DNA of 64,000 nt from a virus, in the IMG/VR virus record IMGVR_UViG_3300046167_000825, positions 186,001 to 250,000 of that record. One strand, given 5' to 3'. Numbering within the stretch: position 1 is the stretch's first letter; each line of letters starts with the position of its first letter. The notes under the pieces were generated by a model. It was not told the DNA's origin, searched no databases, and was given only the letters and a program-made list of their open reading frames with translations. Of the stretch, positions 6,315 through 63,674 are shown piece by piece. Both the position numbers and the translations under genes were made by a program.

Positions 6315-6540
6315 AGTTCTACTTGGCATATTATTCATTTTATTCGGTCTGATTCTATCCTTAAATGCCTCCCAAAAAGATATCGTCATAACCGAAGTTG
6401 AAGAGTATCGCCTAGAAACAAGGCTAAAAGAAGAAGCCCCTATTGTAGTAATGGAGAGTTATCCCTCCGAAGATAGGCTTTGTGATAATCTCGATGAAAT
6501 AATTGAGATTCTTGAAGAGAGTGGGATCGATAAAGAGTAG
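6283..6540 (+). CDS. Small single-pass membrane protein, acidic tail
   Basis: 85 residues. One strong membrane segment at about residues 11-28 (VLLGILFILFGLILSL), then an acidic soluble tail rich in Glu. The start lies inside the preceding coiled-coil membrane gene in another frame. The pair could be holin/antiholin or spanin-like lysis genes, but no endolysin is adjacent. Its 3' end contains the -35 box of the promoter for the next gene. Confidence 0.6.
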   Translation: MSSKTFSQVPRVLLGILFILFGLILSLNASQKDIVITEVEEYRLETRLKEEAPIVVMESYPSEDRLCDNLDEIIEILEESGIDKE

Positions 6541-6552
6541 TGTTTCCGTATA
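6524..6552 (+). promoter_or_regulatory. N17-class promoter
   Basis: GGATCG, 17 bases, CGTATA. The upstream box overlaps the end of the preceding coding sequence. Drives the ABC-ATPase/GNAT gene starting at 6579. Member of the fifteen-site family described in the findings. Confidence 0.7.
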
Positions 6553-6578
6553 TTTCCTACACAATTTAGGAGGTGTAT

Positions 6579-7682
6579 ATGTCAATATTTGACGAACTAC
6601 AAAACAAACCGAAGAAGAAAGTCTTTGTGTCTGTTGACCGTGACGAGTTCACGGAAACAATATCAAACGCTTTCGATTATGAGTTCACTGGTCGCTCCGA
6701 GTTCACAACTTGGACAATGCCCACAGTACCTAGCAATTTTGGTGTGGGTGTTATCGTGGGGGACAGTGGCACGGGTAAATCCTTACTTCTGAAAGAGTTT
6801 GGTGACCCCGAAACAGTGAAATGGCAGAAACGAAAAGCAGTGGCTTCTCATTTCAAAAACCCCGAACAAGCCCAGAAAAAACTGATGAGTGTGGGATTCA
6901 ATACCATCGAGTCTTGGCTGAAGCCCTACCATGTGCTTTCTATGGGTGAGAGATACAGAGCCGTAGTCGCTCGGACTGTGAGGTCGGGGGCAGTGTATGA
7001 TGAGTTCACGAGTGTCGTTGACAGAGACACCGCTAAAAGTTTGTCTGTGTCTTTACGGAGGCTCATAGACGATGAGGGATACACCAACATTGTGGTGGCT
7101 ACTTGTCACGATGATATTCTTCAATGGTTACAACCCGACTGGGTCTTCAATTCCAATACGGGTGAGTTGTCCGTTGGGAGGTCACTTCGGACACCGTGCG
7201 AACTTCAAATCTTCGGAACAGATTCATCTGCTTGGGGAATGTTTGCTCCGTATCACTATCTAAATCACTCTATCAATGCGGCTGCAAAATGTTTTGTTGC
7301 CACTTGGGAGGGGAAACTGGTTGGGTTCTCTGCCGTCTTGCCTTTCCCTTCTGCCATAAAACATGCTTGGCGTGGTCATCGGACAGTCATCTTCCCTAAG
7401 TTTCAAGGGATGGGTTTCGGGGTTCGACTCAGTGATGCCATTGGTGAGATTATGAAAGGAAGAGGGAAAAGGTATTTTTCGAGAACGGCTCATCCGAGAA
7501 TGGGTCAATATCGGGAAAACTCAACCCTTTGGAGAGCCACTTCAAAAAATCTTGTTTATCGCACAGACAATCGGGGAACTATTCGGGAATCCATGCGATA
7601 CAAAAAAGGTGAGGTAGTGCCGATGGATGAGAGAGATAGACGGAGAGTTTGCTATTCTCACGAATATCTAGGTCAAGTCTGA
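6579..7682 (+). CDS. ABC-type ATPase fused to GNAT acyltransferase
   Basis: 367 residues in two domains. The N-terminal ABC-like ATPase has Walker A GDSGTGKS (61-68), signature LSMGER (120-125), Walker B GAVYDE (137-142) and an H-loop His at 177. The C-terminal GNAT domain (about 205-360) has the acyl-CoA loop FQGMGFG at 275-281. As I recall, fusions of this kind in phages have been proposed to modify DNA bases, by analogy to Mu Mom, a GNAT-fold protein that modifies adenine. Substrate here is unknown; protein acylation is the alternative. No membrane segments, so it is not a transporter. AGGAGG before the ATG fixes the start. Confidence 0.8.
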   Translation: MSIFDELQNKPKKKVFVSVDRDEFTETISNAFDYEFTGRSEFTTWTMPTVPSNFGVGVIVGDSGTGKSLLLKEFGDPETVKWQKRKAVASHFKNPEQAQKKLMSVGFNTIESWLKPYHVLSMGERYRAVVARTVRSGAVYDEFTSVVDRDTAKSLSVSLRRLIDDEGYTNIVVATCHDDILQWLQPDWVFNSNTGELSVGRSLRTPCELQIFGTDSSAWGMFAPYHYLNHSINAAAKCFVATWEGKLVGFSAVLPFPSAIKHAWRGHRTVIFPKFQGMGFGVRLSDAIGEIMKGRGKRYFSRTAHPRMGQYRENSTLWRATSKNLVYRTDNRGTIRESMRYKKGEVVPMDERDRRRVCYSHEYLGQV

Positions 7683-7743
7683 TGATTTGAATAATCATTT
7701 TATTCGATGTTGCATAGTGAAACCAACACTAGGAGTATTCACT

Positions 7744-9252
7744 ATGCAATTCATCGACATCTGGCAAAAACTAACAGAAGTACAAAAAGATCGAACATTG
7801 ATACGAGCGAAATATCGTGAGTGGAAACGATTAAACAAGACGATAACAAAGGCTTTCGGTTTGGATTACGCCCAAACGAAAGCCTTTGGTTTATGGGCTA
7901 TGTCTCGTGAGTGGGATGCGACTGAGGACATCTCTGAAGAAATCTCTGAAGGTTTTTCAGAAGAAGACACACTTGATATTCCAGATGAGCCGTTGCTCGT
8001 AGATTCTTGGGCACACAACCAGACTTATTGGTACGACAAAGACCGAAAGTTGTATGTCGTGCATCTGCCTTCCCAAAAGAAACCTCTTGCCATTCCAGAA
8101 AGTAAATGGAAATCCATTCGAGAAGCCTATTCCAATTGGGATGGGACACCATCAAGTGTCAATGAGATTTGTCGGAAGCAAGGTTTATCTCGTAGAACAG
8201 TTGTAGAACTATTGCGAGTGATGGGTGTGACTCATGATAGTTCACCTTACACAGACGAGGAGTTCTCAGAAAGGGGGGAAGGGGAACTTATAGAAGACCT
8301 TCTCCGTAAGAAGGAAGAAAAAGTCTTGATGAAAGCCCAACAGAAAGAGTGGAGTCGAGTCAAAAAAGATGCTGACAAATATCGTTCGGCTTCAATGATT
8401 GCCAATGATACCTTCAATCGTTTGCTTGACAGCACGAAAAAATACAATGTCCCCAAAGCCAAATGGAAGAAACCCACAAAAGAATCCTATTCGATTGTCA
8501 TATCTCCCACTGATTTCCACTGGGGTAAATATGCACCCGTTTATGGTGGTGACCCCTACAATCGAGATATCGCCAAAGAGAGATTGTGGGAAGCAACTCT
8601 AGGTATCCTTTCTCAAGTCAAAGAAAGAGGAGCACCCGATTATATTTATCTCGCTCTCGGGGGCGATGGCTTACACATTGATAACCAAAACAAAACTACA
8701 ACTCGTGGAACACTCCAAGATTGTGATGGGACACCAGAAGAACTGGCTTGGACTTGGGTTGAGATGTGTCGTGAATATGTTGATTTAGTTCGACAGTTCG
8801 CACCCGTAAAACTCTTTGTGGTTGCTGGTAATCATGATTATTATACTGCAACACTTCTCCGTGCAGCGATGAAAGGTTGGTTTCATCGAACAGAGGAAGT
8901 TGAGATTTGTGAGAGCATGTTGAATCGTCAATACGATGTTTACGGAACGAACTTGATTGCTTTCCTACACGGTGATATTGGTTCAGTGAAAGATTGGCCC
9001 GCTATCATTGCTGGGGAAGAGCGAGAGAAATGGGGTATCACCAAGAACAAGTTCATATTCACGGGACACTTCCACACAGAAAGAGAACTGCCGACCTTCG
9101 GTAATGTGACTGTGTATCGTATGCCATCCCTCGCTGGAACTGATGCTTGGCACGCAAGTAAAGGATACAAATCCCGTAAAGCATTGGTTGGGTATGTTGT
9201 ATCAAAGACACGAGGCGTTGTCGGTCAGATAATAGAACCCGTTGAGGAGTAA
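7744..9252 (+). CDS. HTH-metallophosphoesterase
   Basis: 502 residues. A helix-turn-helix at about 137-160 (NEICRKQGLSRRTVVELLRV) precedes a calcineurin-type metallophosphoesterase with all metal motifs: DFHW (257-260), GGDGLH (306-311), GNHD (362-365), H409 and GHFH (441-444). The substrate could be DNA or RNA ends, or a nucleotide; the HTH suggests DNA targeting. AGGAG eight bases upstream of 7744 decides the start; the frame is open to a TTG at 7687 without a ribosome site. Followed two bases later by a co-transcribed unknown. Confidence 0.85.
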   Translation: MQFIDIWQKLTEVQKDRTLIRAKYREWKRLNKTITKAFGLDYAQTKAFGLWAMSREWDATEDISEEISEGFSEEDTLDIPDEPLLVDSWAHNQTYWYDKDRKLYVVHLPSQKKPLAIPESKWKSIREAYSNWDGTPSSVNEICRKQGLSRRTVVELLRVMGVTHDSSPYTDEEFSERGEGELIEDLLRKKEEKVLMKAQQKEWSRVKKDADKYRSASMIANDTFNRLLDSTKKYNVPKAKWKKPTKESYSIVISPTDFHWGKYAPVYGGDPYNRDIAKERLWEATLGILSQVKERGAPDYIYLALGGDGLHIDNQNKTTTRGTLQDCDGTPEELAWTWVEMCREYVDLVRQFAPVKLFVVAGNHDYYTATLLRAAMKGWFHRTEEVEICESMLNRQYDVYGTNLIAFLHGDIGSVKDWPAIIAGEEREKWGITKNKFIFTGHFHTERELPTFGNVTVYRMPSLAGTDAWHASKGYKSRKALVGYVVSKTRGVVGQIIEPVEE

Positions 9253-9254
9253 CA

Positions 9255-9844: not shown

Positions 9845-9873
9845 CGGTTGCGTTTTTTTAAGAGACCCGTATA
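9845..9873 (+). promoter_or_regulatory. N17-class promoter
   Basis: CGGTTG, 17 bases, CGTATA, in the 220-base gap before the SWIM gene at 9910. The preceding bases GTG are also shared with the sites at 48037 and 20067. The rest of the gap (9690-9840) is AT-rich and holds only a weak hairpin. Confidence 0.72.
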
Positions 9874-9909: not shown

Positions 9910-10458
9910 ATGACATTACTTGAAACTTTGAACACAATCGCCACTTCAACACTTGACAACGCTCGCATGAAAACCCACAAGCGAGTGTGGGAAGTTCTTC
10001 CTCACCTTGTCAATGTGCGTGCAGACCGTTCAGAGAACGCCCTCAAAGCAGAGTGTGTTGGTGCTGACGGCAGTACTTACGAAATCACTCTCACCCTTGA
10101 GGGCAAGGTTGCCAAGCACGAATGTACTTGTGAGGCTTCTAAGAAAGACACCAATGCCCCTTGCAAGCACGCTCTTGCCGTTGCTTGGCGATGGGAGAAC
10201 CGTCAGACTGAAGACAAGGGTCAAGACCTTGCACAATCACAAGGTCGTCCTAGCCACCACATTGTGCGTGGTACAGTTGAACGAGAAACAGCCAAAGCCG
10301 TTCTGATCAAGGACGAGAATGGTAAGAGCGAGTTCTTCCCAAAACGCTTTGTTGAGGGTAACGAGGTCGATGGCTTTGCTATCCCATATTTCCTTATGGA
10401 AGGCAAGGAAATCACTTCAGAGCCTACTTACATTGTGCCAGTACGAAAAGCCTCATAG
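9910..10458 (+). CDS. SWIM zinc-finger protein
   Basis: 182 residues with a SWIM motif: C72, C74, C85, H87 (CTC-x10-CKH), a zinc-binding fold used for DNA or protein contacts. The N-terminus is helical; the C-terminal 70 residues form a second domain containing a lysine-rich strand pattern. Expressed alone from the N17 promoter just upstream and ended by a strong terminator. A second SWIM protein is encoded at 63242-63625. Proposed role: DNA-binding accessory protein in recombination or regulation. Confidence 0.8.
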   Translation: MTLLETLNTIATSTLDNARMKTHKRVWEVLPHLVNVRADRSENALKAECVGADGSTYEITLTLEGKVAKHECTCEASKKDTNAPCKHALAVAWRWENRQTEDKGQDLAQSQGRPSHHIVRGTVERETAKAVLIKDENGKSEFFPKRFVEGNEVDGFAIPYFLMEGKEITSEPTYIVPVRKAS

Positions 10459-11737: not shown

Positions 11738-12697
11738 TTACACGGTTTTCTTGTGTTGAGTCGATCCCAATTTGGTCTGTAAATCCTCTGTTTTCACTTG
11801 TATGATTGTTCGTTTGTCTTGTGTCCAAGACACTTTCTCCAAACCCAATGCTTTTAATATCCGTTTCGTGTTCTCCCATAATTGATCTTCCACGCTGAAA
11901 GACACTGCCCCTTGTTGTTTCAAATGGGTGGCGACAAGATATGCTTTGTGTATCTCACATAAAATGGGGTAGTAGTTTATATGATTCAAACCAGAGGTTT
12001 GAATGACATCGTACCAAGCCTTGTTTGCGAGGTAAGGCACACAGTGTTCCATAAACCGTTTGAGGACACCCTCTCTACCAACGGGGGCATCAATATAATG
12101 CTGTTCTGTTCTCGTGGTGTAGATATACATTTCTTGGCATAATGAGGGGTATTTGATTGTTGCTTGAGGGTCACCAAAAGTTTGGAAGAAATGGTTATGA
12201 ACATAGTCTTCCAGAACAGTCTTAGAGAACCTTTGTAGAGGTCTCTCGCTCTCAATCTCCCACACTTTGTCGGCAAAGCCTTGTACTGATGGGTGGAACT
12301 CCCCAAAAGAGCCATTGTGGTGAACTCTATTATAGGGGTTGGCTAGAAAAAGTCTTACGGGATATCGTTGAAGTTCAATTCGGTTGTTCTTTATGAGGGG
12401 ATGAACAACACCAACTTTAGGGACGTTTTTAACTGGAAAGGTCAGTTCTGTTTTAGGTTGGAACGATGTTGGGAATCGCTCTGGGTTTTCCGAGTAATCC
12501 CTTTGATCAAAGTGGTGGTGAACCCATTTCGTTGAGAAGGATTCAATGTCACCATACTTAACACGAACGCCTAGATGATTACTTTCTTGTACGATGGCGG
12601 GGAAGTTGTATTCCCCCGATTTGTAAAAAAAGCAAACCCAAAGAAGGTCGCCTTTCGCTATTTCATTGTATGACAATCGCATTGCTTGTTTTGGCAT
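11738..12697 (-). CDS. Hypothetical protein
   Basis: 319 residues with AAGGAA upstream. Residues about 10-60 look like a small SH3- or Tudor-like beta barrel (GDLLWVCFFYKSGEYNFPAIV, then VRVKYGDIE); the remainder is helical and aromatic-rich. It is the first gene of a minus operon and has an N17-class promoter 41-69 bases upstream. Function unknown. Confidence 0.7.
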   Translation of the reverse strand: MPKQAMRLSYNEIAKGDLLWVCFFYKSGEYNFPAIVQESNHLGVRVKYGDIESFSTKWVHHHFDQRDYSENPERFPTSFQPKTELTFPVKNVPKVGVVHPLIKNNRIELQRYPVRLFLANPYNRVHHNGSFGEFHPSVQGFADKVWEIESERPLQRFSKTVLEDYVHNHFFQTFGDPQATIKYPSLCQEMYIYTTRTEQHYIDAPVGREGVLKRFMEHCVPYLANKAWYDVIQTSGLNHINYYPILCEIHKAYLVATHLKQQGAVSFSVEDQLWENTKRILKALGLEKVSWTQDKRTIIQVKTEDLQTKLGSTQHKKTV

Positions 12698-12713: not shown

Positions 12714-12742
12714 TTGTGAGAAGTGCTAGACTTTTCTTATAC
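12714..12742 (+). promoter_or_regulatory. Possible host-type promoter
   Basis: TTGTGA, 17 bases, TTATAC, ending about 26 bases before the ATG at 12769. Its -10 box shares bases with the minus-strand N17 promoter at 12738-12766, so the two would be mutually exclusive. Weak match to sigma-70. Confidence 0.3.
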
Positions 12743-12766
12743 GGAAACCCAGAGGAGAAACAACTG
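12738..12766 (-). promoter_or_regulatory. N17-class promoter (minus)
   Basis: Read on the minus strand: CAGTTG, 17 bases, CGTATA. Drives the operon from 12697 down to 10554. The upstream box ends two bases before the ATG of the divergent gene at 12769. Confidence 0.7.
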
Positions 12767-12768
12767 CT

Positions 12769-13017
12769 ATGTCTTTAATCACACTGAAGGAACAAACAGA
12801 AGACACCTTTTACGGGTGTCTTGGGTCGCTAGAGATACTTGTCCAGTATAGGAAAGACCGATGGTCATACACTATGCTTGAAAAAGAAATCGGTGGGGGA
12901 TGGGGGCGACACGCCTCAGCATCCAATTTAAAAGAGGTGTTGCACAAACTCGCACAACACCTCCCGAACATGAGGATCTTCTTATTATTAGAAAATAGAG
13001 AACTTGATGAAGTCTGA
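12769..13017 (+). CDS. Small hypothetical protein
   Basis: 82 residues, GAGGAG upstream. Single plus-strand gene between two minus operons; its 3' end overlaps the 3' end of the convergent coiled-coil gene by 30 bases. A Gly-rich GGGWGRHA patch is the only notable feature. Function unknown. Confidence 0.62.
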   Translation: MSLITLKEQTEDTFYGCLGSLEILVQYRKDRWSYTMLEKEIGGGWGRHASASNLKEVLHKLAQHLPNMRIFLLLENRELDEV

Positions 13018-14136
13018 AAGATGCTTGAAAGTTCCTTCCTTGTAGCCCTTTGAACTTGATTTCAAAGAACAAGAGATATTGACTGTGATGGTTTCCTCTT
13101 TTGGCAAACCATCCAACAAAGGACGATATCGCTCACCCAACATATAAATTAATTTATGGATTTGATCTTCAGAGGGAGTACCACCTTGCCAATCAAGAGA
13201 TTGCCACATCTTGAGACGATCTTTGTCATTAGCACTATAAAGTTGTTCAAATTGAACTCTTGCTTGGGACAAAAGCCCTTTTACTTTGTCTGCTGACTCT
13301 TTTTGCTTACGATAATCCTTGAAGACTTTCTTGGCTTCCTCAGAAGATTCTTTCCAAGATTTCTCCATTTGAACCCAAGCCTCGTTGTCTTCACCATTCA
13401 TCTTAGGAGAGATGTTTTCAAGTTCTTGTTCTATTCTCGTAGCCTTGGCTCTCAGCACTTGATGTTCTTCCTCTTTTTGTTGAACATTCAACTGAGCCTC
13501 TTGGAGTTCCGATTCTAGTTCGTTTATCTTATCTTGCAAGATATCCAAGCGTTCCAGTTCGACTTCTTCGTTCTTCATTGCACTTGCCAAAGATTGAGCA
13601 TCTCCCAACATCTCAGCCAGAAGCCTCTTTTGGTCTTTATCTGTTTTCTGACTGATTAACTCAAGAGAGTTCTTACCAGCCTTAATCTCGAAGGGGGCTT
13701 GCAAACCAACTTTCTGTAAATAGGCTATGAGGGAAGGCATGTCATTGTAGAAGCCTTGTGGTTTATTACTTTGCTTTGTTTCAGAGGTTTCATCCCAATG
13801 AATGACTGTGTGTTCCAAAGAGATCACGGCAAAAGGAACAGTCGCTGGGAAGAACTTTTGGAAGTCACGAATGAAGTTCGGGTGCGATTGTATCACAACA
13901 CCTTTTGGGGCTTTACCACTAGAGGCTTTTTCAACTGCCTTCAGAAACATTGCTGCACCACCACGATTGGTGTTCATGGCATATAGATTCTCTAAATGTC
14001 CATCATCAATTCCCACCAACACCTCGGCTGTTCGGTTCATGAGAGTGGCTTTCTTCAAGACGGCACGAATCTCTGGGTTCGTTTTTGCTTGTTTGATAAG
14101 TTCCGTGATAAACGCAAGGCTTTTTTGTGAATCCAT
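12988..14136 (-). CDS. Coiled-coil protein
   Basis: 382 residues. The middle (about 170-300) is a long coiled coil rich in Glu, Lys and Leu; the N-terminal 150 residues form a globular domain. I took the ATG at 14136, which has GGAGA six bases upstream, over the ATG at 14160. No family recognised. Structural, scaffolding or DNA-associated roles are all possible. Confidence 0.7.
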   Translation of the reverse strand: MDSQKSLAFITELIKQAKTNPEIRAVLKKATLMNRTAEVLVGIDDGHLENLYAMNTNRGGAAMFLKAVEKASSGKAPKGVVIQSHPNFIRDFQKFFPATVPFAVISLEHTVIHWDETSETKQSNKPQGFYNDMPSLIAYLQKVGLQAPFEIKAGKNSLELISQKTDKDQKRLLAEMLGDAQSLASAMKNEEVELERLDILQDKINELESELQEAQLNVQQKEEEHQVLRAKATRIEQELENISPKMNGEDNEAWVQMEKSWKESSEEAKKVFKDYRKQKESADKVKGLLSQARVQFEQLYSANDKDRLKMWQSLDWQGGTPSEDQIHKLIYMLGERYRPLLDGLPKEETITVNISCSLKSSSKGYKEGTFKHLSDFIKFSIF

Positions 14137-14228
14137 TGTAGTTCTCCGTAAGTTTTTCATTATTAAAAATATATAGGAAGATTATTCTGCTGGTGTGACT
14201 CTAACCGTAGTTCAAGAATCTTTGAGGG

Positions 14229-19276: not shown

Positions 19277-19750
19277 TCAAAGTTGATAGTTTGTGGGTTC
19301 GGTTTGGTCAATGAAGAAAGCAATTGCAAGTTTACGGATGAGTTCCTCGTTCGGGAAAACTTTCGCATAAGTGTCGGGTAAGACATGTGGTAGCCATTCG
19401 TAGGCAGCATCGCATATCTCTGGGGTGTTATAGTCCTCGTCAATATTGAACTCGTCAATGAGAGTGGTTTCCCAAAGAGCATCCATTTCGTCTAGCACCC
19501 AATCGACCCAATCTTCACGATGTATATATGCCACCATTTCAAGGAAAATCGGTGAGGTGATATCGTGATAGATAGGGAGTCCTTTTGCACCGATTTCAAA
19601 CAGACCTTGCCCATCTGAAAATAGAAGCCAATCCTCCCTCCCATCTATTTCCCAACAGAAAATCCCTTCGACTGTATAAGCATTCTGAAAGCGATTTGAA
19701 AAGGTTTTGACACCACCAAATTGCCACCAAGCACATTGCATTAAATCCAT
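19277..19750 (-). CDS. Hypothetical acidic protein
   Basis: 157 residues, very acidic and rich in Trp, Asp and Glu. Of two close ATGs I chose 19750, which is seven bases from AAGGAG; the ATG at 19756 is too close to it. Expressed from the N17 promoter about 25 bases upstream. Strong negative charge would suit a DNA mimic, but this is only a possibility. Confidence 0.7.
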   Translation of the reverse strand: MDLMQCAWWQFGGVKTFSNRFQNAYTVEGIFCWEIDGREDWLLFSDGQGLFEIGAKGLPIYHDITSPIFLEMVAYIHREDWVDWVLDEMDALWETTLIDEFNIDEDYNTPEICDAAYEWLPHVLPDTYAKVFPNEELIRKLAIAFFIDQTEPTNYQL

Positions 19751-19772: not shown

Positions 19773-19801
19773 TATACGGAAAGAGGGCTTAGAAGCGATC
19801 C
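19773..19801 (-). promoter_or_regulatory. N17-class promoter (minus)
   Basis: Minus strand: GGATCG, 17 bases, CGTATA, about 22 bases upstream of the start at 19750. Confidence 0.72.
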
Positions 19802-19824: not shown

Positions 19825-20010
19825 TCAGCCCCATTTGCCCCGACAAGCACCTTTGTCTTTCTTCTTTTTCTTGTCTGGGATGACGGTGTGTGTTCCTCTC
19901 CAAGAAGCCATGTCACCACCATTTTCAAAGTGGCTTCTTCGCATTTCACCACGAACTCCAGAGAGTTGCTTGAGTTGTTGTTTGAGAGATTTTTTTTCTT
20001 TCCTAGTCAT
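19825..20010 (-). CDS. Small basic hypothetical protein
   Basis: 61 residues, highly basic at both ends (KEKKSLKQQLKQL and a run of five Lys near residue 50). AGGAGG before the ATG and an N17 promoter directly upstream support expression. The charge suggests nucleic-acid binding. Confidence 0.65.
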   Translation of the reverse strand: MTRKEKKSLKQQLKQLSGVRGEMRRSHFENGGDMASWRGTHTVIPDKKKKKDKGACRGKWG

Positions 20011-20043: not shown

Positions 20044-20072
20044 TATACGGAAAACTTAAAAAGATGCAACCG
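20044..20072 (-). promoter_or_regulatory. N17-class promoter (minus)
   Basis: Minus strand: CGGTTG, 17 bases, CGTATA, ending 34 bases before the start at 20010. The GTGCGGTTG context matches the sites at 9845 and 48037. Confidence 0.72.
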
Positions 20073-25320: not shown

Positions 25321-25362
25321 AGGGGTCTCCTTCAAAGTCACTATCTCTTGAGTATAGAGAGA

Positions 25363-25686
25363 TTATTTCTTCATGATATCTTTGGTGTCTGAACCCTCTG
25401 GGAGTTTTTCAACAGCCAAATCAATCAGAGAGGTATTAGCGAGAACAGACTTCAGTTCGTGGAAAGACCTTTTCCAATCTTGTTCGAGGAGTACCTCTGT
25501 TTTCCCTTCGTGACCATGAATGGTACGAACATCCCCAATGCTATCATAAACACCCGTAGAAGGAGTGTCACTCAACCAAGTGAGGGCTACCTTCCCGTTA
25601 TCGAATATGACTCCTTGTGCTATTCTCCCAGTGCCACTGACCCCACTGTCATCTTCGACACGGTGTAAATAAAATAACTTTGCCAT
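25363..25686 (-). CDS. Conserved small phage/bacterial domain protein
   Basis: 107 residues from the ATG at 25686, which follows AAGGAGA; the longer frame to 25767 overlaps the preceding gene. The core pattern SGVSGTGRIAQGVIFDNGKVALTWL, broken here as SGVSGTGRIAQG, VIFDNGKVALTWL, then STGVYDSIGDVRTIHGHEGKT, matches a small domain I recall as common in actinobacterial and phage proteins of unknown function. Confidence 0.72.
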   Translation of the reverse strand: MAKLFYLHRVEDDSGVSGTGRIAQGVIFDNGKVALTWLSDTPSTGVYDSIGDVRTIHGHEGKTEVLLEQDWKRSFHELKSVLANTSLIDLAVEKLPEGSDTKDIMKK

Positions 25687-27105: not shown

Positions 27106-27426
27106 ATGCAGAACCAATTATTTTTTTCAAGAGAGAACGCACATCTGTTAGCAGAAGAAGTCTTTAAGATTATATCTGGGAAATCGAACCCAGTGTTCCC
27201 TCATTCATCGAAGGGGATGCCCTCCCTTTATGTTTTGATGGGAAATACCAAAATAGACACCGATCAATATCATCGGTGTGTCCTACCCGTAATAGAGAAG
27301 GAGGATTTGCAAATCCTCCGAACCCCTAGATCAAGGGAGTTCCTAAAGGATCGAACACGAACTCAGATATTCATTGATCGGATAGGAGGCTATCTGACAG
27401 ATTCTTTTATTGCAGAAGGCTTCTAG
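27106..27426 (+). CDS. Hypothetical protein
   Basis: 106 residues with a good ACGGAGGA site before the ATG. Mixed composition and no recognised motif. First gene of the long plus block. Codon choice (more AGA, ATA) differs a little from its neighbours, and it borders the non-coding region, so it is less secure than most. Confidence 0.5.
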   Translation: MQNQLFFSRENAHLLAEEVFKIISGKSNPVFPHSSKGMPSLYVLMGNTKIDTDQYHRCVLPVIEKEDLQILRTPRSREFLKDRTRTQIFIDRIGGYLTDSFIAEGF

Positions 27427-27454
27427 GGTTGATTGGGCTGTGGGTTTCCGTATA
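27426..27454 (+). promoter_or_regulatory. N17-class promoter
   Basis: GGGTTG, 17 bases, CGTATA; the upstream box overlaps the stop of the preceding gene. Drives the zinc-ribbon, delta-prime and delta genes. Confidence 0.7.
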
Positions 27455-31573: not shown

Positions 31574-31602
31574 GGATCGGTTCAGACCTCTTATTTCGTA
31601 TA
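31574..31602 (+). promoter_or_regulatory. N17-class promoter
   Basis: GGATCG, 17 bases, CGTATA, ending 20 bases before the helicase ATG at 31623. Confidence 0.75.
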
Positions 31603-33983: not shown

Positions 33984-33999
33984 ACTCCAACTCCGTATA
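33971..33999 (+). promoter_or_regulatory. N17-class promoter
   Basis: GGATCG, 17 bases, CGTATA; the upstream box overlaps the last codons of the helicase gene. Drives the two genes at 34017 and 34354. Confidence 0.73.
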
Positions 34000-37852: not shown

Positions 37853-37881
37853 GGATCGTTTTGAGGGGCTTTTTCGGTATA
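37853..37881 (+). promoter_or_regulatory. N17-class promoter, GGTATA variant
   Basis: GGATCG, 17 bases, GGTATA (the only member without CGTATA), 17 bases before the SbcC N-half ATG at 37899. Confidence 0.62.
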
Positions 37882-42148: not shown

Positions 42149-42165
42149 CCCCCACTTTCCGTATA
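42137..42165 (+). promoter_or_regulatory. N17-class promoter
   Basis: GGGTTG, 17 bases, CGTATA; the upstream box overlaps the end of the methyltransferase. Drives sbcD at 42182. Confidence 0.72.
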
Positions 42166-43208: not shown

Positions 43209-44138
43209 ATGGGAAGAAAAGTTAAGGTTCTCTATTGGTCAACAATGGAGAGATATGAGAAATGCCCCCAGATGTTTTTGTGGGGTCGTGGTTGGGAAGG
43301 CATCGACTTGGGTTACGGTGTGGGTGAGCCTATCCCCCCACCTAAGCCGTCTTCTATGCACCATGCCGTGATGGGCATTGTGATTGCGAAGGCAATGGAG
43401 GATCTCTATAACGATGAGTTGTGGCGAGACCCCACCAATCTCAAAGAAAATCTTGAGAAGAGCATTAGGAAAGAGTTCAAGTTTCTGACACACACGAAAT
43501 ACATTGATTGGGAAAAAGCCCCTAGCGAAGAAGAAATGCTCACGGTTTGCTTGGAAGGTATTCGTGGGTTTCTTCCCACGATGAAACACCACAAACTGTT
43601 GGGGCAGTATTCACGGAGTGAAGTGAATATGATAGCCGAACTAGACGGTGGAGTGAAGGTGGGTGGTAGAGCAGACCTCGTGATTATCCGAAATCAAGAA
43701 GTAGGCATCTACGATGGGAAGAACTCTTTGAGCAAAGGTAAATACACCTCTCCAGACCAGTTGAGATGGTATGCTATGTTATATCGGGCAACCACTGGTG
43801 ACACTCCTCACAAACTGGGCTTCATCTATTATAGATATCCTTACGGTATGGACAATGAGGGTGAGATGGAACAAGGGGTTGATTTCGTGGAGTTCACCCC
43901 CCACCATTTAGATTCTTTAGAGGAGCGAGCCAAAGAAACAATGATGGGTATGCACTCAAAATCTTTTGACCCCACTCCAAAAGCAAAACATTGTCAGTTC
44001 TGTGATTATGAATCCATCTGTGATGCTCGTAAAGAGCAGAAGGCAGTAAACTCGGAGAAAAGAAAGAAGAACTTCGATAAGAAATTGGGCATTGAAGGGT
44101 CGACCGAAAAGTTTGTTCAATTTAAATTGCCGAAGTAG
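43209..44138 (+). CDS. PD-(D/E)XK nuclease with Fe-S cluster (Cas4/AddB type)
   Basis: 309 residues. Nuclease core GRADLV (Asp156) and YDGKNS (D169-x-K171), followed by a QLRWYAMLY helix (QxxxY motif). Four cysteines, C19 near the N-terminus and C262, C265, C271 near the C-terminus, match the iron-sulfur cluster layout of Cas4, AddB and RecB-family exonucleases. Likely a DNA exonuclease for recombination or host DNA breakdown. CGGAG upstream; no cas genes or CRISPR array nearby. Confidence 0.9.
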   Translation: MGRKVKVLYWSTMERYEKCPQMFLWGRGWEGIDLGYGVGEPIPPPKPSSMHHAVMGIVIAKAMEDLYNDELWRDPTNLKENLEKSIRKEFKFLTHTKYIDWEKAPSEEEMLTVCLEGIRGFLPTMKHHKLLGQYSRSEVNMIAELDGGVKVGGRADLVIIRNQEVGIYDGKNSLSKGKYTSPDQLRWYAMLYRATTGDTPHKLGFIYYRYPYGMDNEGEMEQGVDFVEFTPHHLDSLEERAKETMMGMHSKSFDPTPKAKHCQFCDYESICDARKEQKAVNSEKRKKNFDKKLGIEGSTEKFVQFKLPK

Positions 44139-44166
44139 GATCGTTCTTGGGAAGTCTTTTCGTATA
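44138..44166 (+). promoter_or_regulatory. N17-class promoter
   Basis: GGATCG, 17 bases, CGTATA; the upstream box overlaps the nuclease stop codon. Drives the coiled-coil, clamp and SbcC C-half genes. Confidence 0.75.
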
Positions 44167-44183: not shown

Positions 44184-44435
44184 ATGACACTTGATGAAGC
44201 ATTGAAAAGAAAACAAAAACTTGAGAAAACACTCCAGCGATTGCAAGGTCGTTTGGATGTCGCTAAATCAGATAAGCAAAAACTTGATACGGAGATCCGA
44301 GATAAGGGTTATGACCCAGAAGACCTTGAAAATGTTATTGAGAGGTTATCTTCTCAGAAAACAAAATTACTAGAACAACTCGAAATCCATCTGCACGAAG
44401 CAGAAACTAACTTACTCACCTATATGGAGAAATAA
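44184..44435 (+). CDS. Small coiled-coil protein
   Basis: 83 residues, almost all two coiled-coil helices with a DKGYDPEDL turn between them. AAAGGAGG precedes the ATG. Next to the clamp and the SbcC C-half gene. It could associate with the split SbcC coil, but this is inference. Confidence 0.68.
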   Translation: MTLDEALKRKQKLEKTLQRLQGRLDVAKSDKQKLDTEIRDKGYDPEDLENVIERLSSQKTKLLEQLEIHLHEAETNLLTYMEK

Positions 44436-44437: not shown

Positions 44438-45583
44438 ATGAAAATGACTATTGCAAAAACAGACCTTGAAAAAGCCATCGGTATCACGGCTTATTCACTA
44501 GGCTCAGACGGCACAGCCGATTGGACGAAAAATTACTTCCTTCGTCAAACAGAGACTGGCATGGATGTTCACACCACCAACCATCGTTACTGCTCAAGTA
44601 CAAGTATAAACACTTGCACAGTCAATGGTGATATTGTGAATAGTTTCAATCTTCCAGCCTCCCGTTTCAAAGATATGTTCAACTACATGGAAAACAATGT
44701 GGTCACCTTGACTGTCAAAGACAGTATTGTGACTGTCCACAACAGTCGTGGGAATGTTCGTTTCCCGTGTAACAAGCAAGACTTCCCTTACTGGGATAAA
44801 TCGGTTTCGTCTGCAAAATCTATGTTGACCATCAAGGCAGAGGCATTGTACGAACTAATCAATCATCACAAAAAGTTTGTGGCAAAGCCAGATGCTAAAT
44901 CGGTTGTCTATCGCTATATCTCTTTTCAGAATGGTGGTGTCCTCAGTGGTGACGGTCTTAATATGTGTTTGACTGTTTCGGATGATTTGAATGATGCCGA
45001 CTTTTACTTGACCAAACTAGATGTCAATCCTTTGCTTGGCTTTTTGAAATCTTGTGACGGGGATATTGCTATCACCCATTGTGATAAAATGGTTTATTTC
45101 AAGTCGAACTCCGATGCCGTGTTCGGTATGGTGAAGCCCCCTAAACGAGTGTGTGCTGGTTTAACGGGTATTGATGTTGGGATGATGAAAAACAGCCTTA
45201 CAGATGTGTTAGCCGAGTGGTCTACCTCTAAAGCGAACTTGATTAACTCCTTTGGTATGCTTGGTTTCACTATGTCAGAGGACGACAAAGTGGTCAAGTT
45301 TGAGTTCAAGGACGGGTCACTGTTCTTTAATGGTCGTTCTATGGCTGGTGGTGTTGATACTCTTGAGGTAGGTTTGACAACCTTCAAAGATGACACAAAG
45401 GTGCTTGAAAATGCTTCCTACTTCAATCGAGAGGTCTTCACAAAGGTTCTGAAACTCATTGATGGGGATGATATCACTATCAAAACACTGAAGTCCTTGA
45501 ATAACTCACCCGTAGTAGATCACACTGTTTCGGGGTATTCCACCTATTCTTTGGTCGTTCCTATCCAATCTGCGAACTTTTAA
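44438..45583 (+). CDS. dnaN: DNA polymerase sliding clamp (beta-like)
   Basis: 381 residues, close to bacterial DnaN (366). Three repeated clamp-type domains can be followed: strands such as DSIVTVHNSRGNVRFPC (about 90-115), MVYFKSNSDAVFGMV (about 210) and a C-terminal YSTYSLVVPIQSANF resembling the DnaN end. The presence of delta, delta-prime and DnaX genes in the same phage supports the assignment. Motifs are weak by eye, so a distant homologue. The stop overlaps the start of the next gene (TAATG). Confidence 0.72.
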   Translation: MKMTIAKTDLEKAIGITAYSLGSDGTADWTKNYFLRQTETGMDVHTTNHRYCSSTSINTCTVNGDIVNSFNLPASRFKDMFNYMENNVVTLTVKDSIVTVHNSRGNVRFPCNKQDFPYWDKSVSSAKSMLTIKAEALYELINHHKKFVAKPDAKSVVYRYISFQNGGVLSGDGLNMCLTVSDDLNDADFYLTKLDVNPLLGFLKSCDGDIAITHCDKMVYFKSNSDAVFGMVKPPKRVCAGLTGIDVGMMKNSLTDVLAEWSTSKANLINSFGMLGFTMSEDDKVVKFEFKDGSLFFNGRSMAGGVDTLEVGLTTFKDDTKVLENASYFNREVFTKVLKLIDGDDITIKTLKSLNNSPVVDHTVSGYSTYSLVVPIQSANF

Positions 45584-48036: not shown

Positions 48037-48065
48037 CGGTTGTGTCTTTCGATTAGATCCGTATA
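48037..48065 (+). promoter_or_regulatory. N17-class promoter
   Basis: CGGTTG, 17 bases, CGTATA, with the same GTG prefix as the sites at 9845 and 20067. About 34 bases before the ATG at 48099. Confidence 0.74.
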
Positions 48066-48098: not shown

Positions 48099-48290
48099 AT
48101 GAACTACAAAGTAATCACACAAAATGTTTCGACAGACCGACCCTATGACAAGGGAGAGTTTGAGAAGAAAGTCCTAGAACACTTACGAGAGGGGTACACT
48201 CTTGTTGGTGGTGTCACTGTCACAGTTGTGGCATTTAGCACAAATCAACCCAAAACATTACAATACACACAAGCCGTTATCAAACAATAG
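48099..48290 (+). CDS. DUF1737-like small protein
   Basis: 63 residues. The pattern EGYTLVGGVTVTVV then YTQAVIK resembles the short DUF1737-type family (GW-x-PLGG, then QAM). These are small alpha/beta proteins of unknown function. GGAGAA precedes the ATG. Confidence 0.68.
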   Translation: MNYKVITQNVSTDRPYDKGEFEKKVLEHLREGYTLVGGVTVTVVAFSTNQPKTLQYTQAVIKQ

Positions 48291-48852: not shown

Positions 48853-48881
48853 CAGTTGAAATCCTTTTCATTTTTCGTATA
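48853..48881 (+). promoter_or_regulatory. N17-class promoter
   Basis: CAGTTG, 17 bases, CGTATA, directly after the terminator and 17 bases before the dnaX ATG. Confidence 0.7.
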
Positions 48882-48898: not shown

Positions 48899-50182
48899 AT
48901 GTCACTAGATACAAAATACAGACCAATGGTATATGCCGATGTGATCGGTCAGCAAAGTAATGTTGAGGTTCTCACCAACATTGTGAAGAAGGAAGCGGGG
49001 TTTCATCAATCCTATGTCTTCTGTGGCCCACACGGTACGGGGAAAACAACACTGGGGCGAATACTCGCTAGGGCTTTATTGTGTGATTCCCCCGTGAATG
49101 GCGAACCATGTGATGAATGTTCCTCGTGCAAGACTATCCTTGAACACGGTAATAGCGAATGTTTCATTGAGATCGATGCTGCCACGAACAGTGGGAAAAG
49201 TGACATCAAGGATATCGTGGACTCCCTTGAGTATGTGGCTGTGAGTGGTCGTAAGAAGATTTACCTTTTTGATGAGGCACATGAACTTTCTCGTCAAGCC
49301 CTTGATGGTCTCTTAAAACCAATGGAAGACACCGTCTATGGAACACAAGAGAAGAAACTCATTTGTATCTTCTGTACCACAGAGCCAGAGAAAATGAGGA
49401 AAACGATCTTCTCACGATGTGCTCCAGCATTTGTTGTGCGTTCTCCGACACCTCAAGTGATCGCAGATCGCCTTCAGTATATCTGTGAGCAAGAGAAGAT
49501 TGAGTTTGATTATCCAGCCCTCACAGCCATAGCAGAATATGGTGAGTGTCATGTCCGTGATGCCATCAAAGCAGTGGAAGGGGTTTCAATGGTTGGGAGG
49601 GTGTCCTCTGAATCCGTGAACCACTATTTAAGGCTAGATACAACCTTCAAAGCCCTAGACATCCTTGAGAACCTACACGGAGATTTCAGCAAGGTTTTGG
49701 AAACCCTAGACACTTTATCCACGATGGCTTCAGCCAGTGCAATGTACGAGATGTTGGCAAAACTTTCAATGACGGCTTTTCGTTATTCAATGGGTTTCCA
49801 AAAGTTACCCTCTTATTTGAACGAAGAAAGAGTGTCGAAAATTGCAGAGAAGAAAGGGGTTTTACTGCAATTAGTGAAAAGTTTATTGTCACCTCCCTTC
49901 AATCCGACATATAATATGTTGATTTGCGACTTGGCAAACTATTATCATAACCAACACACTATCAGCACTCCACAAAAAAACGAAGCATTCCCGAACCAAG
50001 TCCAGTCTTCAACGGTATCATACACCGAAGATACGACAAAGGTACTAAATGGGGTCTATCGAGAGCCAAAGGCTGTCAATAATGCCCCAAAAAAAGACAT
50101 TCCTTCAATGGGGTTGTCTTTGGATCAATTCCGTTCCTTTGTCCTCACAAGATTAAAGGAACTGGAAACCAATGGCAGATGA
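48899..50182 (+). CDS. dnaX: DNA polymerase III clamp-loader ATPase (DnaX, tau/gamma)
   Basis: 427 residues. Walker A GPHGTGKT (43-50), zinc module C62, C71, C74, C77, DEAH (125-128), sensor 1 and SRC (172-174), as in bacterial DnaX. The C-terminal 65 residues are variable. An in-frame slippery heptamer A AAA AAC at 49975-49981 lies where E. coli dnaX frameshifts to make gamma. Its end overlaps the NusG-like gene by 11 bases. Confidence 0.93.
   Translation: MSLDTKYRPMVYADVIGQQSNVEVLTNIVKKEAGFHQSYVFCGPHGTGKTTLGRILARALLCDSPVNGEPCDECSSCKTILEHGNSECFIEIDAATNSGKSDIKDIVDSLEYVAVSGRKKIYLFDEAHELSRQALDGLLKPMEDTVYGTQEKKLICIFCTTEPEKMRKTIFSRCAPAFVVRSPTPQVIADRLQYICEQEKIEFDYPALTAIAEYGECHVRDAIKAVEGVSMVGRVSSESVNHYLRLDTTFKALDILENLHGDFSKVLETLDTLSTMASASAMYEMLAKLSMTAFRYSMGFQKLPSYLNEERVSKIAEKKGVLLQLVKSLLSPPFNPTYNMLICDLANYYHNQHTISTPQKNEAFPNQVQSSTVSYTEDTTKVLNGVYREPKAVNNAPKKDIPSMGLSLDQFRSFVLTRLKELETNGR
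49975..49981 (+). other. Candidate -1 frameshift heptamer in dnaX
   Basis: A AAA AAC in the zero frame (within a run of seven A). A -1 shift would add 34 residues before a TAA and replace the last 66 or so. I saw no obvious upstream Shine-Dalgarno-like stimulator or stable downstream hairpin. Confidence 0.35.
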
Positions 50183-50705
50183 TAGAGACCAAAAAACTTG
50201 GGTTGTCCTAGAACTCACTTCAAAAGGTGAATACCTTGTTCGTGAGGGAACACTAGAGAAATATCTCAGAAGACATCTAGGTATAGATGAAGATCACTCC
50301 ATCTATATTCCTCTCCATACTTATAAAAAGGGTGGGAGAGAAATCCAACTAGAAGGGATACAAGGATACGCCTTTATAGCCAGTGGTTTGATGGATTATG
50401 ATTATTTCGCTCTTGAACAACATGACTACACTCGCAGTGTTCTTTCGATAGATAGAGGTAAATACAGAACAATCACAACACTACCAGATAGTTCCATTCA
50501 ACATATCCGAGATAAGATTCGAGAAGAAATCTCGACAGACCTTGATGAGGGTATGTTTATTCGTGTCATTCTAGGGAACTACATCTCCTTAGAAGGTGAA
50601 ATTATTGGGTTCGATGGTGATAAAGCATTGGTGGAAGTCGGTCTGAGATCGATTCACGCTATTGTTCCAATCCCAAGAATCTGTTGTGACCCTATTAAGG
50701 AGTGA
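50172..50705 (+). CDS. NusG-like transcription factor
   Basis: 177 residues. The N-terminal half follows the NGN domain layout (WVVLELTSKGEYLV, helix EKYLRRHLG, IYIPLHTYKKGG, GYAFIASGLMDYDYFALE), and the C-terminal part is a KOW barrel (GMFIRVILGNYISLEGEIIGF, split here as GMFIRVILGNYISL and EGEIIGFDGDKALVEVGL, 127-158). NusG binds RNA polymerase and controls pausing and termination. A phage version could act as a processive antiterminator for late genes. It precedes a sigma-like gene and the structural block. Confidence 0.72.
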   Translation: MADDRDQKTWVVLELTSKGEYLVREGTLEKYLRRHLGIDEDHSIYIPLHTYKKGGREIQLEGIQGYAFIASGLMDYDYFALEQHDYTRSVLSIDRGKYRTITTLPDSSIQHIRDKIREEISTDLDEGMFIRVILGNYISLEGEIIGFDGDKALVEVGLRSIHAIVPIPRICCDPIKE

Positions 50706-50707
50706 AT

Positions 50708-51310
50708 ATGTGGTGGAGTGGACATAAAATACTAGAGCCTCACGAGTTGGAGAATCGCTTTTCTACTGAGGATTGTATCTTCAATAATGGGATTACCTTC
50801 ACAGAGGTGATGTCTGAGGAGATGAAAGCACAAGTTGATAAGATTAAATCGTTTTTGGATATGATTCCTAGACGGGAAGCCGATTTTGTTGAGTTGTACT
50901 ACTTCCAACACATGAAGCAAACGGATATCGCAAACTTGTTTTGTGTGACCCAACCGACTGTCTGTTATCGTCTTCAAAGGGCTTCTGCTCGGATTAAGTT
51001 CCTTGTAGAACTCCCCGATTTAACCATAGCACAGATTCAGAATGACCTTGAAGAAGTCTTGGTTGACCCTCTCGATGTGAAGATCATGGTGCAAATGTAT
51101 CAAACGACATGTCAATCAGAAGTGGCGAAGAATCTCAATGTTTCTCAAGGGCTAGTTCGACATAGATTTATTAGGTCTATCAAACGATTGGGTTGTGACG
51201 GCTACGATGAACTGGTTGCCGTTTATAAAAAAATCTCCGAAAACTTGAACATCCTCAGAGAAGTGCAACGACCCTCTCTTTCCGAAACTTCTTTCATTGT
51301 CTTACACTAA
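50708..51310 (+). CDS. Tandem sigma-region-4-like DNA-binding protein
   Basis: 200 residues with two helix-turn-helix domains of sigma region 4 type: about 52-95 (PRREADFVELYYFQHMKQTD, then IANLFCVTQPTVCYRLQRA) and about 118-160 (DPLDVKIMVQMYQTT, SEVAKNLNVSQGLVRHRFI). No region 2. It may be a -35-binding co-activator, as T4 gp55 and gp33 split sigma functions. The ATG at 50708 is five bases from AAGGAG; a GTG at 50702 overlaps the preceding stop. Confidence 0.75.
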   Translation: MWWSGHKILEPHELENRFSTEDCIFNNGITFTEVMSEEMKAQVDKIKSFLDMIPRREADFVELYYFQHMKQTDIANLFCVTQPTVCYRLQRASARIKFLVELPDLTIAQIQNDLEEVLVDPLDVKIMVQMYQTTCQSEVAKNLNVSQGLVRHRFIRSIKRLGCDGYDELVAVYKKISENLNILREVQRPSLSETSFIVLH

Positions 51311-60875: not shown

Positions 60876-60884
60876 TGATTCACT

Positions 60885-61184: not shown

Positions 61185-62863
61185 CAAAAAAATCTGGTGT
61201 GGCAGTCGGTAAAGTTCCTTCTCGTGCGAAAGTACACACGGGAAAACCTCGTAAAGTTGTGGCTAGTTCAATGAAAGTTGGTGGGTTACAGACCTATTCT
61301 GGTGGCGAAGGGTCTGGTGGGAACTTCTATTCTCCCGAACTGAGTACCGATTTCCTTGAACTCCCACAGAGTATGCACGAGAGATGGAATTACTTCCGTT
61401 TCTTCTATCGTTCAGAACCTTTCGTGGGTCAAGCGATTGATCTTCACACCGAACTTCCCCTTTCAAAAATCCGTCTGGGTTTCCCGAACTACATCAAAGA
61501 CAGAGAGATGGCGAAGGAGGCATTGGACTTCTGTCAGAAGTGGTCTAGGAAAATCGGATTACTTCACCGTTTGATTGAGATCGTCCATGAATACAATCTC
61601 ATTGGTGAAGTGTTTATCTTCATGGAAGATGTGACTTCAGACCCACCCGATGATCTTAAATATGAAGTCAGACGAGAACTGCTTGATGATGGGACAGTCC
61701 AAGAGGAACTTGTAGAACGAGAGGATGCCAAAGAACTGCAAGTGAAATGGTTGAAAAAGAACTACAAGGGTTGGACAGCCCTCCGAGTTCTCCCCCCAGA
61801 GCAAACCCATGTTCAATCGTTTCCATTCACGGATGAGAAGATTATTGAACTTATCCCCGATTCTAAAACAAAGGACATTATCTCACAAGCAGATAGTGGT
61901 GACCCAACAGCAAAGCGTATTGTGGACTCCATGCCTAGAGGTGTGGTGGAAGCCGTCCTTGAAGGGAAGAATATCCCCTTGAACACCGATCCAGATGCGG
62001 GTTCTTTCGTCTGCTATCTCGCTCGTAAGAAATCACAGTATGAGGACAGAGGGCATTCCATCCTTGAGAGATGTATCCGAACTCTCGTGTTCCGAGATAA
62101 ACTTCGTCAAGCCAACACTTCTATCGCTTCAAGGCACATGACCCCCATCCGTTTGGTCTATGGTGAAGATATGGATCAAGCCGATGTGGAAGCATTGAGA
62201 GAGCAAGTGGATTTGGCTCTTGCTGATCCCGACTTCTCTATCATAGCGAACTTTGAAATCCGATGGGAGGAAATGGGTTCTGACCAACGCCTCCTTGATC
62301 TTGGTTCTGAATATGACCTCACTGATCGTCAGTTGTATGCTGGTCTTGGTGTGACAGAAGGCTTACTCTCTGGTGAGAGTTCTTATAGTGGTGACCGTAT
62401 CAACTTGGAAGTCATCAACACGAGGTACATGCTTCTCCGAGAAATCCTACAAGACTTGGTTGAGGAGAAAATGCTCAAACCAATGTGTGCTAGGATGGGT
62501 TTCATTGAGGAAGATGAATACGGAAATGAACATGTGGTTTATCCCACACTTTCTTTCACAAGACTTGCACTCAGAGATAACAATGACACTTTCGATGCCT
62601 TGTTCAATCTCTATCAGAAGGGTTCATTGGATGTGGATATCATCTTGGAACTCTTGAACATTGACCCAGTAGCAACCAAAGAGAAACTAGAACGAGATAT
62701 GTTCACACTCAACGATAGTCAGTTCAATGAGGTTCTACGAGGTATCTATGGTGAGGCTGGTCGTGCATTAGCCGAGAACTCAGATGCCCTTGAAAAGATA
62801 GCCGAGAATCTAGGTCTGACCTACGAGAAGCCCGAAGAAGAAGGTGGCGGTGGTAGATTCTGA
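61181..62863 (+). CDS. Portal protein
   Basis: 560 residues, normal for portals. N-terminal disordered Lys/Gly region, RWNYFRFFYRSEPFVGQAID and LIEIVHEYNLIGEVFIFMED typical of portal wing regions, then FRDKLRQANTSIASRHMTPIR (written here as FRDKLRQANTSIA and SRHMTPIR) in the stem region and a C-terminal clip-crown with Gly-rich tail. Forms the dodecameric DNA channel. Placement after terL supports the call. Confidence 0.88.
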   Translation: MTKKSGVAVGKVPSRAKVHTGKPRKVVASSMKVGGLQTYSGGEGSGGNFYSPELSTDFLELPQSMHERWNYFRFFYRSEPFVGQAIDLHTELPLSKIRLGFPNYIKDREMAKEALDFCQKWSRKIGLLHRLIEIVHEYNLIGEVFIFMEDVTSDPPDDLKYEVRRELLDDGTVQEELVEREDAKELQVKWLKKNYKGWTALRVLPPEQTHVQSFPFTDEKIIELIPDSKTKDIISQADSGDPTAKRIVDSMPRGVVEAVLEGKNIPLNTDPDAGSFVCYLARKKSQYEDRGHSILERCIRTLVFRDKLRQANTSIASRHMTPIRLVYGEDMDQADVEALREQVDLALADPDFSIIANFEIRWEEMGSDQRLLDLGSEYDLTDRQLYAGLGVTEGLLSGESSYSGDRINLEVINTRYMLLREILQDLVEEKMLKPMCARMGFIEEDEYGNEHVVYPTLSFTRLALRDNNDTFDALFNLYQKGSLDVDIILELLNIDPVATKEKLERDMFTLNDSQFNEVLRGIYGEAGRALAENSDALEKIAENLGLTYEKPEEEGGGGRF

Positions 62864-62921
62864 TAATCTATCTATATCGTCTTATAGATGAATAAGAGAG
62901 AAGTCGTCAAAAACTTCAACT

Positions 62922-62954: not shown

Positions 62955-62978
62955 CAACCACAAACTTGGCTTAATGTA

Positions 62979-63233
62979 CTACTTGGGTTTCCCTCCCCGA
63001 CAAGGAGTACACCAACTTTGTGGAATCGTTTTACCCTTGATAACTCGCAAACCAAAAGACTCTACAACTTTCCCTATCTTTTTACATTTGGGGCATGCCT
63101 TGTATTCTAGTTCATATTGGTCAATGGCTTCAATGAGCGTGTTTTTCGATATTTTCCCGTTGCCAATTCGGTGATCAAGTACAAGCACCATACCATTGGG
63201 TGTGTTTATCCTTTTACATATTTCGTCACTCAT
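62979..63233 (-). CDS. Zinc-ribbon protein
   Basis: 84 residues with CPKC and CTPC, a zinc ribbon in the C-terminal half, after a DHRIGNGKISK basic segment. AGGAGA before the ATG. Last gene of the minus operon from the N17 promoter at 63646. Probable nucleic-acid binding; role unknown. Confidence 0.75.
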   Translation of the reverse strand: MSDEICKRINTPNGMVLVLDHRIGNGKISKNTLIEAIDQYELEYKACPKCKKIGKVVESFGLRVIKGKTIPQSWCTPCRGGKPK

Positions 63234-63241
63234 GTCTTCTC

Positions 63242-63625
63242 CTATGCAGATTTGCGTTGTTGTGAAATGATTTGATGAGTACCAACTAGGGAGTTGTTGA
63301 GGGCATGCTCTATGGCTCTTTGGTCTATATCAAGACGGTCATCAAGCCATCGACCTAAAGCGATGGTGTGCTTACATAAGCGACCGAAACCACCAGCCTC
63401 ACAAGTGCAACGAACACTCTTTGTTTTGAGATTCACTCTCGTGGTATAAACTTCCGAGCCAGATATGGGTGTGTGGGTCATCCCCGTAATCAATCCCGCA
63501 TCGACATCGAATGACGGTGACATCACAGCCACCTTTGATGCTTTTATTCGGGTGTCCTTTGACACTTTGCTCTCAAGCCGTTGGATGGTTTCTCGTAATA
63601 TCGTAGTTTGGTTCAGTATATTCAT
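63242..63625 (-). CDS. Second SWIM zinc-finger protein
   Basis: 127 residues with C73, C75, C84, H86 (CTC-x8-CKH) after a TTRVNLKTKSVR strand. Shares the SWIM core with the protein at 9910-10458 but is otherwise different. AAGGAGA before the ATG and an N17 promoter upstream. Proposed DNA or protein binding. Confidence 0.8.
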   Translation of the reverse strand: MNILNQTTILRETIQRLESKVSKDTRIKASKVAVMSPSFDVDAGLITGMTHTPISGSEVYTTRVNLKTKSVRCTCEAGGFGRLCKHTIALGRWLDDRLDIDQRAIEHALNNSLVGTHQIISQQRKSA

Positions 63626-63645
63626 AGCAATCTCCTTGTGCTTTA

Positions 63646-63674
63646 TATACGGAGAAACCTTTTCGATGCGATCC
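63646..63674 (-). promoter_or_regulatory. N17-class promoter (minus)
   Basis: Minus strand: GGATCG, 17 bases, CGTATA, 20 bases before the SWIM start at 63625. Confidence 0.75.

Follow-up and report, generated by a model that had tools for sequence, protein, structure and literature searches.

A promoter family with a fixed 17-base spacer in an uncultured jumbo phage and its candidate phage sigma factor

Introduction

In Bacillus phage SPO1, the proteins gp28 and gp33/gp34 are the sigma factors of middle and late promoters, and replace the host sigma factor on the host core RNA polymerase. Promoters of extracytoplasmic function (ECF) sigma factors have the form GGAAC-N16/17-CGTC/CGTA. Here, we describe a family of sites, SRRTYG-N17-CGTATA, in a jumbo-phage virus record of 289,014 bp (IMG/VR record IMGVR_UViG_3300046167_000825). 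The window that was analyzed is a stretch of 64,000 nucleotides, bases 186001-250000 of the record, and positions are those of the window unless the record is named. A preliminary description of the window had reported 15 such sites as promoters.

Other described systems are also close. Phages phiEco32 and 7-11 have a phage-encoded sigma factor and a -10-type motif, TAATGTATA, which was found as a repeated intergenic motif (PMC4331800). In T4 middle promoters, an activator box near -30 is combined with a -10 element (PMC11598898). The sigma-28 (FliA) promoter is TAAAGTTT-n11-GCCGATAA, and its core -10, CGATAA, has C at -12, G at -11 and A at -7 (PMC2859248). Group 2 jumbo phages encode sigma factors (PMC7824862).

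The present family is of the SPO1 and phiEco32 kind, in that an oriented motif of fixed geometry is repeated upstream of phage genes, above chance, in a phage that encodes sigma factors. A search of the record for an RNA polymerase core (beta subunit, PF00562) gave no match, although single-subunit polymerases were not searched for; the promoters therefore do not fit the phiKZ type, which goes with phage-encoded multisubunit non-virion and virion RNA polymerases, and we infer the use of the host core RNA polymerase. As in SPO1, a non-host -35/-10 pair stands at a fixed, sigma-like spacing and would serve middle genes, but the gp28 boxes are AGGAGA and TTTNTTT, whereas here there are two spacer subclasses, a CG-initial -10 and an unrelated jumbo lineage. 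The phiEco32 and 7-11 motif TAATGTATA ends in GTATA, as does the element described here; it is, however, a single extended -10 motif used with a divergent sigma factor, whereas a -35 box at an invariant 17 bp appears essential in this phage. A G-rich -35 box and a CGTA-type -10 are shared with ECF promoters, but the present boxes (GGATCG, CGGTTG or GGGTTG) have no GGAAC core and are one base longer. The kind of system is therefore already known from SPO1 and phiEco32; the literature searched did not contain this motif sequence, its division into two subclasses or the turnover between lineages that is discussed below.

Results

All 15 sites read back exactly in both boxes and in strand, with the box tallies first given (GGATCG in eight, CGGTTG in three, GGGTTG and CAGTTG in two each, and one GGTATA in place of CGTATA), and a pattern scan of the window returned those 15 and no more. 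The chance level was 0.10 matches per window (standard deviation 0.33, maximum 2; 100 dinucleotide-preserving shuffles). Fifteen is the size of the family in the window only. The whole record of 289,014 bp holds 49 exact copies of SRRTYG-N17-CGTATA, versus none in a control read backwards, and a 50th copy, at 37853, has GGTATA. The spacer and hexamer controls and the site-by-site tallies covered 246 kb of the record, taken as separate, unjoined stretches. The box was matched 50 times with a spacer of 17 bases and 0-3 times with each of the other spacer lengths between 8 and 30, and the invariant spacing thus held up under the kind of spacer control that the preliminary description had proposed. 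Of 81 CGTATA hexamers, 49 have the box 17 bases upstream and two more have TGGTTG at that distance (record positions 159465 and 157932, both on the minus strand). Permuted hexamers at the same place gave at most three matches, and in the regions before genes no hexamer was more over-represented than CGTATA (50 versus 4.7 expected). The family has about 52 members, in two subclasses, rather than 15.

Each of the 50 sites whose box has an S-type first base is followed, in the correct orientation and as first described, by a Shine-Dalgarno sequence and a start codon 16-66 nt away; the codon is ATG in 49, and the distance is 16-44 nt at all sites except 35083 (66 nt). Some sites, including 6524 and 33971, reach into the 3' end of the preceding gene, so that not all are strictly intergenic. 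The only other conserved feature downstream of CGTATA is a pyrimidine-purine step at bases 6-7, found at 39 of 50 sites versus about 10 at other positions. If the purine 7 nt after CGTATA is numbered +1, CGTATA spans -12 to -7 and the upstream box spans -35 to -30, that is, in the register of the sigma-70 family, with CGTATA as the predicted -10 element and the upstream box as the predicted -35 element. Given the fixed 17-bp spacing, the Y-1R+1 step at the canonical distance and the start codon with a Shine-Dalgarno sequence after every copy, that SRRTYG-N17-CGTATA is a promoter family seems to us certain by the standards of sequence analysis.

The two subclasses differ in the spacer. Class I, with 17 sites and the two TGGTTG variants, has a conserved spacer and reads TG-CGGTTG-CA-T-rich-A-AG-W-Y-C-CGTATA; its members lie mostly near 9.5-12.2 kb and 143-165 kb of the record. 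Class II, with about 30 sites, has GGATCG or GGGTTG and a T-rich run just before the -10, the rest of the spacer being free. Three CGGTTG sites carry the class II spacer, suggesting that the box and spacer elements are separable. In class I, the transcribed sequence from +1 to about +15 is also conserved and TGTCAATCAATCA-like, perhaps as a shared leader.

As previously noted, the boxes do not match TTGACA/TATAAT: no member has the host form TTGACA-N16-18-TATAAT, and sigma-70-consensus sites are not in excess in the phage (64 versus 62 in a reversed control). Class I boxes can nonetheless be read as TTGCAN-N16-TATARN, which raises the question of whether both classes are misaligned host sigma-70 promoters (TTGCAN or TCGNNN, 16 bp, TATANN). 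We consider this very improbable and rejected the TATANN register, in which TATA would occupy -12 to -9: T is scarce at -7 (1 of 20 sites in class I), the start signal, only about 5 nt from the -10, is too close, class II boxes would read TCG, no reason is given for the invariant GG and CG bases, and most sites have low sigma-70 scores. The sites might also be operators of a phage regulator that works with the host sigma factor, as MotA/AsiA does in T4, where an upstream box near -30/-35 likewise accompanies a -10 element and defines a temporal class for replication genes. The T4 promoters, however, keep host sigma-70 and a host-like TATAAT, whereas here the -10 is the most invariant part (CGTATA at 49 of 50 sites), is not TATAAT and occurs together with phage sigma factors; we regard this explanation, too, as improbable.

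The genes that follow are those expected from the preliminary description, namely replication and accessory genes. First genes behind class II sites include those for DNA polymerase A, a DNA helicase, a DNA methyltransferase, a Dda/exonuclease V-like helicase, SbcC/SbcD-like nuclease subunits and the clamp loader; the sliding clamp gene is second in its own operon. Class I precedes mostly genes of no known function, some with CobS/CobT-like matches, and its region looks like a takeover region. No family site precedes the identified virion genes (terminase, portal, head maturation protease and baseplate wedge), again as first stated, and the whole-record scan found no site at 12.8-68 kb, 109-143 kb or 250-273 kb of the record.

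On the plus strand of the window, the class II site at 31574-31602 precedes the Dda/exonuclease V-like helicase gene (31623-33983), and that at 33971-33999, which overlaps the 3' end of the helicase gene, precedes gene 34017-34367. The site with the longest leader, 35083-35111, lies before gene 35178-35912, the GGTATA site (37853-37881) before an SbcC/exonuclease-like gene (37899-39098) and a GGGTTG site (42137-42165) before an SbcD-like gene (42182-43138). Downstream, 44138-44166 precedes gene 44184-44435 and then the sliding clamp gene (44438-45583), and a CAGTTG site at 48853-48881 precedes the clamp loader gene (48899-50182). Class II further comprises, on the same strand, 6524-6552 (GGATCG; gene 6579-7682) and 27426-27454 (GGGTTG; a small gene at 27485) and, on the minus strand, 12738-12766 (CAGTTG; gene 11738-12697), 19773-19801 (GGATCG; gene 19277-19750) and 63646-63674 (gene 63242-63625). 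The CGGTTG box at 20044-20072 (minus; gene 19825-20010) has a class II-type spacer. Class I is represented, on the plus strand, by 9845-9873 (CGGTTG; gene 9910-10458, a SWIM zinc finger protein) and 48037-48065 (gene 48099-48290). The product of 6579-7682, the first gene after the 6524 promoter, has an N-terminal half that is ATPase/ABC-like, joined to a half of the GNAT acetyltransferase type.

Three sigma-like proteins are encoded in the record. SigA (5237-5989, plus strand) is RpoD/RpoS-like and has regions 1.2, 2 and 4. SigC (1864-2652, plus strand, in an open frame from 1786) is divergent and ECF-like, with a match to phrog_1740 and a sub-threshold match to the ECF superfamily. SigB, a sigma factor of 207 residues, is encoded at record positions 155283-155906, 31 kb upstream of the window. 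It belongs to the sigma-70 superfamily (NCBIfam TIGR02937, 64.8 bits with a cut-off of 42.9; PF04542, E-value 2e-11; phrog_351) and is closer to the RpoH/RpoS/RpoD type than to ECF. The preliminary description proposed a phage sigma factor as the reader and named SigA or SigC. That the promoters are read by a phage sigma factor is, in our view, likely; of the candidates, the one outside the window, SigB, fits best.

SigC was found, together with a protein encoded at 50702-51310 (plus strand), in relatives whose terminase is 54-71% identical. The motif is absent from these relatives, which also gave no sigma region 2 match above the cut-off and thus lack a sigma factor of SigA or SigB grade. 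Conservation of SigC in motif-free relatives counts against it, and for SigA or SigB; its operon, moreover, carries the second motif described below. The 50702-51310 protein has two region-4-like helix-turn-helix stretches and no detected region 2; it is 29-50% identical in the relatives and resembles the minimal sigma factor of group 2 jumbo phages. A peptide-pattern scan of viral contigs gave no relatives of SigB or SigC, the relatives of SigC having been found through the terminase. The nearest match to SigA, in Microcystis phage MaAM05 (36.8%), was dropped, as the DNA looks bacterial rather than phage. A search of bacterial genomes with SigA gave no pointer to the host.

SigA, also absent from the motif-free relatives, is complete, its -35-reading helix lacks E585 and R588, which would fit a box other than TTGACA, and a class II site lies directly downstream of its gene. 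It retains, however, N383, S428, T429, Y430, W433, W434, R436 and Q437 (E. coli numbering), of which N383, S428, W433, R436 and Q437 are the residues that read T-12, A-11 and T-7. The -10 predicted for SigA is thus TATAAT-like, and CGTATA has none of those bases. Its gene array, in addition, is preceded by late-like motifs and not by the CGTATA family, and SigA would thus come too late for early genes. We therefore consider SigA an unlikely reader of these promoters. SigB, aligned to RpoS, has K, D, Q, F and A at N383, S428, W433, R436 and Q437. Q at 433 and M at 439 are common to SigB and E. coli FliA, as is a small residue at position 437, as read by hand from the sequences (the MAFFT alignment has a gap just after), and CGTATA shares C-12, G-11 and A-7 with the FliA -10. 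The likeness has its limits: scored against the FliA/WhiG family, SigB falls far short of the cut-off, the FliA promoter differs in its TAAA -35 box and in spacing, and TAAA-N15-GCCGATAA does not describe the family in this phage. The sigB operon lies behind a family site at record position 154218, and a TTGACT-N16-TATAAC overlay at this site has the best sigma-70 score of the 50. These features point to SigB as the probable reader.

Several points weigh against this assignment. The overlay at 154218 scores 9.6 bits and the next best site 9.3. SigA and SigB are both lineage-specific, so that co-occurrence cannot separate them; that one sigma factor reads both spacer subclasses is an assumption; and the residue argument is made by alignment rather than from a structure. 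A host alternative sigma factor, exploited by the phage, might also suffice, with no phage sigma factor needed. In the 485-kb relative LR745208.1 (terminase 64% identical), CTAAA-N15-GCCGATAG, the sigma-28/FliA consensus, occurs 29 times, versus none in the control. That genome gave no sigma region 2 and no full-length FliA-type match, only a region-4 protein matching the FliA family, and would have to use the flagellar sigma factor of its host; recourse to alternative sigma factors of the host thus seems to exist within this phage group. The present phage, which has no match to CTAAA-N15-GCCGATAG, nevertheless encodes two extra sigma factors, unlike its relatives, and the presence of two subclasses, with a -10 that hardly varies across about 50 genes, suggests that the promoters co-evolved with a single dedicated factor. 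To our knowledge, no bacterial sigma factor reads SGRTYG-N17-CGTATA. On balance, exploitation of a host factor seems to us slightly less likely still than SigA, and SigB remains the preferred candidate.

A second, contiguous motif, RATAATCNNTYTATAT, emerged from upstream regions without CGTATA. With at most one mismatch, it occurs 16 times in the record versus once in the control, and 12 times versus twice in the AT-rich relative UViG 3300046779_001841. A weight matrix gave 40 sites of at least 13 bits versus 7 in the reversed sequence, an optimistic figure as the matrix was trained on the same genome. The motif is found directly downstream of the portal gene (GATAATCTATCTATAT, 62862-62877, plus strand), before the head-protease region and within the sigC-sigA gene array (AATAGTCTTTCTATAT, 2944-2959, plus strand, with weaker copies at 1344, 2824 and 3994). 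On the minus strand, AATAATCTTCCTATAT (14171-14186) precedes gene 12988-14160 and AATAATCTCTCTATAC (25352-25367) precedes a start codon at about 25320. The motif is likely a late promoter used by the identified virion genes, and from their shared conservation SigC is probably its reader.

Two other words are over-represented in the 246 kb: the 9-mer AGATTCTTG (96 copies versus about 2.6 expected, 47 on the plus and 49 on the minus strand) and the 9-mer CGAACTAGA (46 copies versus about 2 expected, both strands). They are mostly not tied to gene starts, are nearly absent from the relatives checked, and are possible Chi-like, primase, packaging or host-mimicry words.

Discussion

We propose that the SRRTYG-N17-CGTATA sites are early/middle promoters of a jumbo phage, read by the host core RNA polymerase with a phage sigma factor, most likely SigB, a reading to which we assign a probability of roughly 0.6. 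Sigma region 4 would bind the upstream box, SGRTYG, as the -35 element, and region 2 would melt CGTATA (-12 to -7) as the -10 element; the 17 bases would be a sigma-70-type span between them, and transcription would begin 7 nt after CGTATA, at the purine. The position of sigB in the early-gene cluster, behind the family promoter that comes closest to being a host sigma-70 promoter as well (TTGACT-N16-TATAAC), suggests that host sigma-70 starts its expression. Polymerase carrying SigB may then switch on class I, in the takeover region, class II, for replication, and its own operon, the virion genes being left to RATAATCNNTYTATAT, probably read by SigC.

The promoters are not shared at large. 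Scans of a viral collection with the class I and class II patterns found only near-identical siblings (UViG 3300021085_000024 and 3300047357_000950) and no divergent relative, other matches being scattered, chance-like singles. UViG 3300046779_001841 has repeated promoter-like families of its own, TTGCAAAGATNGCTNANNCACAAGTGTTATATATATGTC and (T)AATATAAG; together with the differing family of LR745208.1, this suggests that promoter repertoires turn over within the phage group. Possibly, early/middle specificity is swapped from lineage to lineage by a change of sigma factor. Under this tentative scheme, the phage described here would have acquired a divergent, FliA-like sigma factor (SGRTYG-N17-CGTATA) and LR745208.1 would use host sigma-28 (CTAAA-N15-GCCGATAG), with the core SigC kept and the late-like motif present both in this phage and in at least one of its relatives.

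The family gives this uncultured jumbo phage a directly testable regulon: about 52 promoters, each with a start site predicted at single-base resolution, together with a named candidate sigma factor and, for the late class, a second motif. The sigma factor could be used with its promoters as an orthogonal pair for gene expression. The comparison with relatives suggests that promoter specificity is changed as a whole between closely related jumbo phages, a point of relevance to how they switch hosts.

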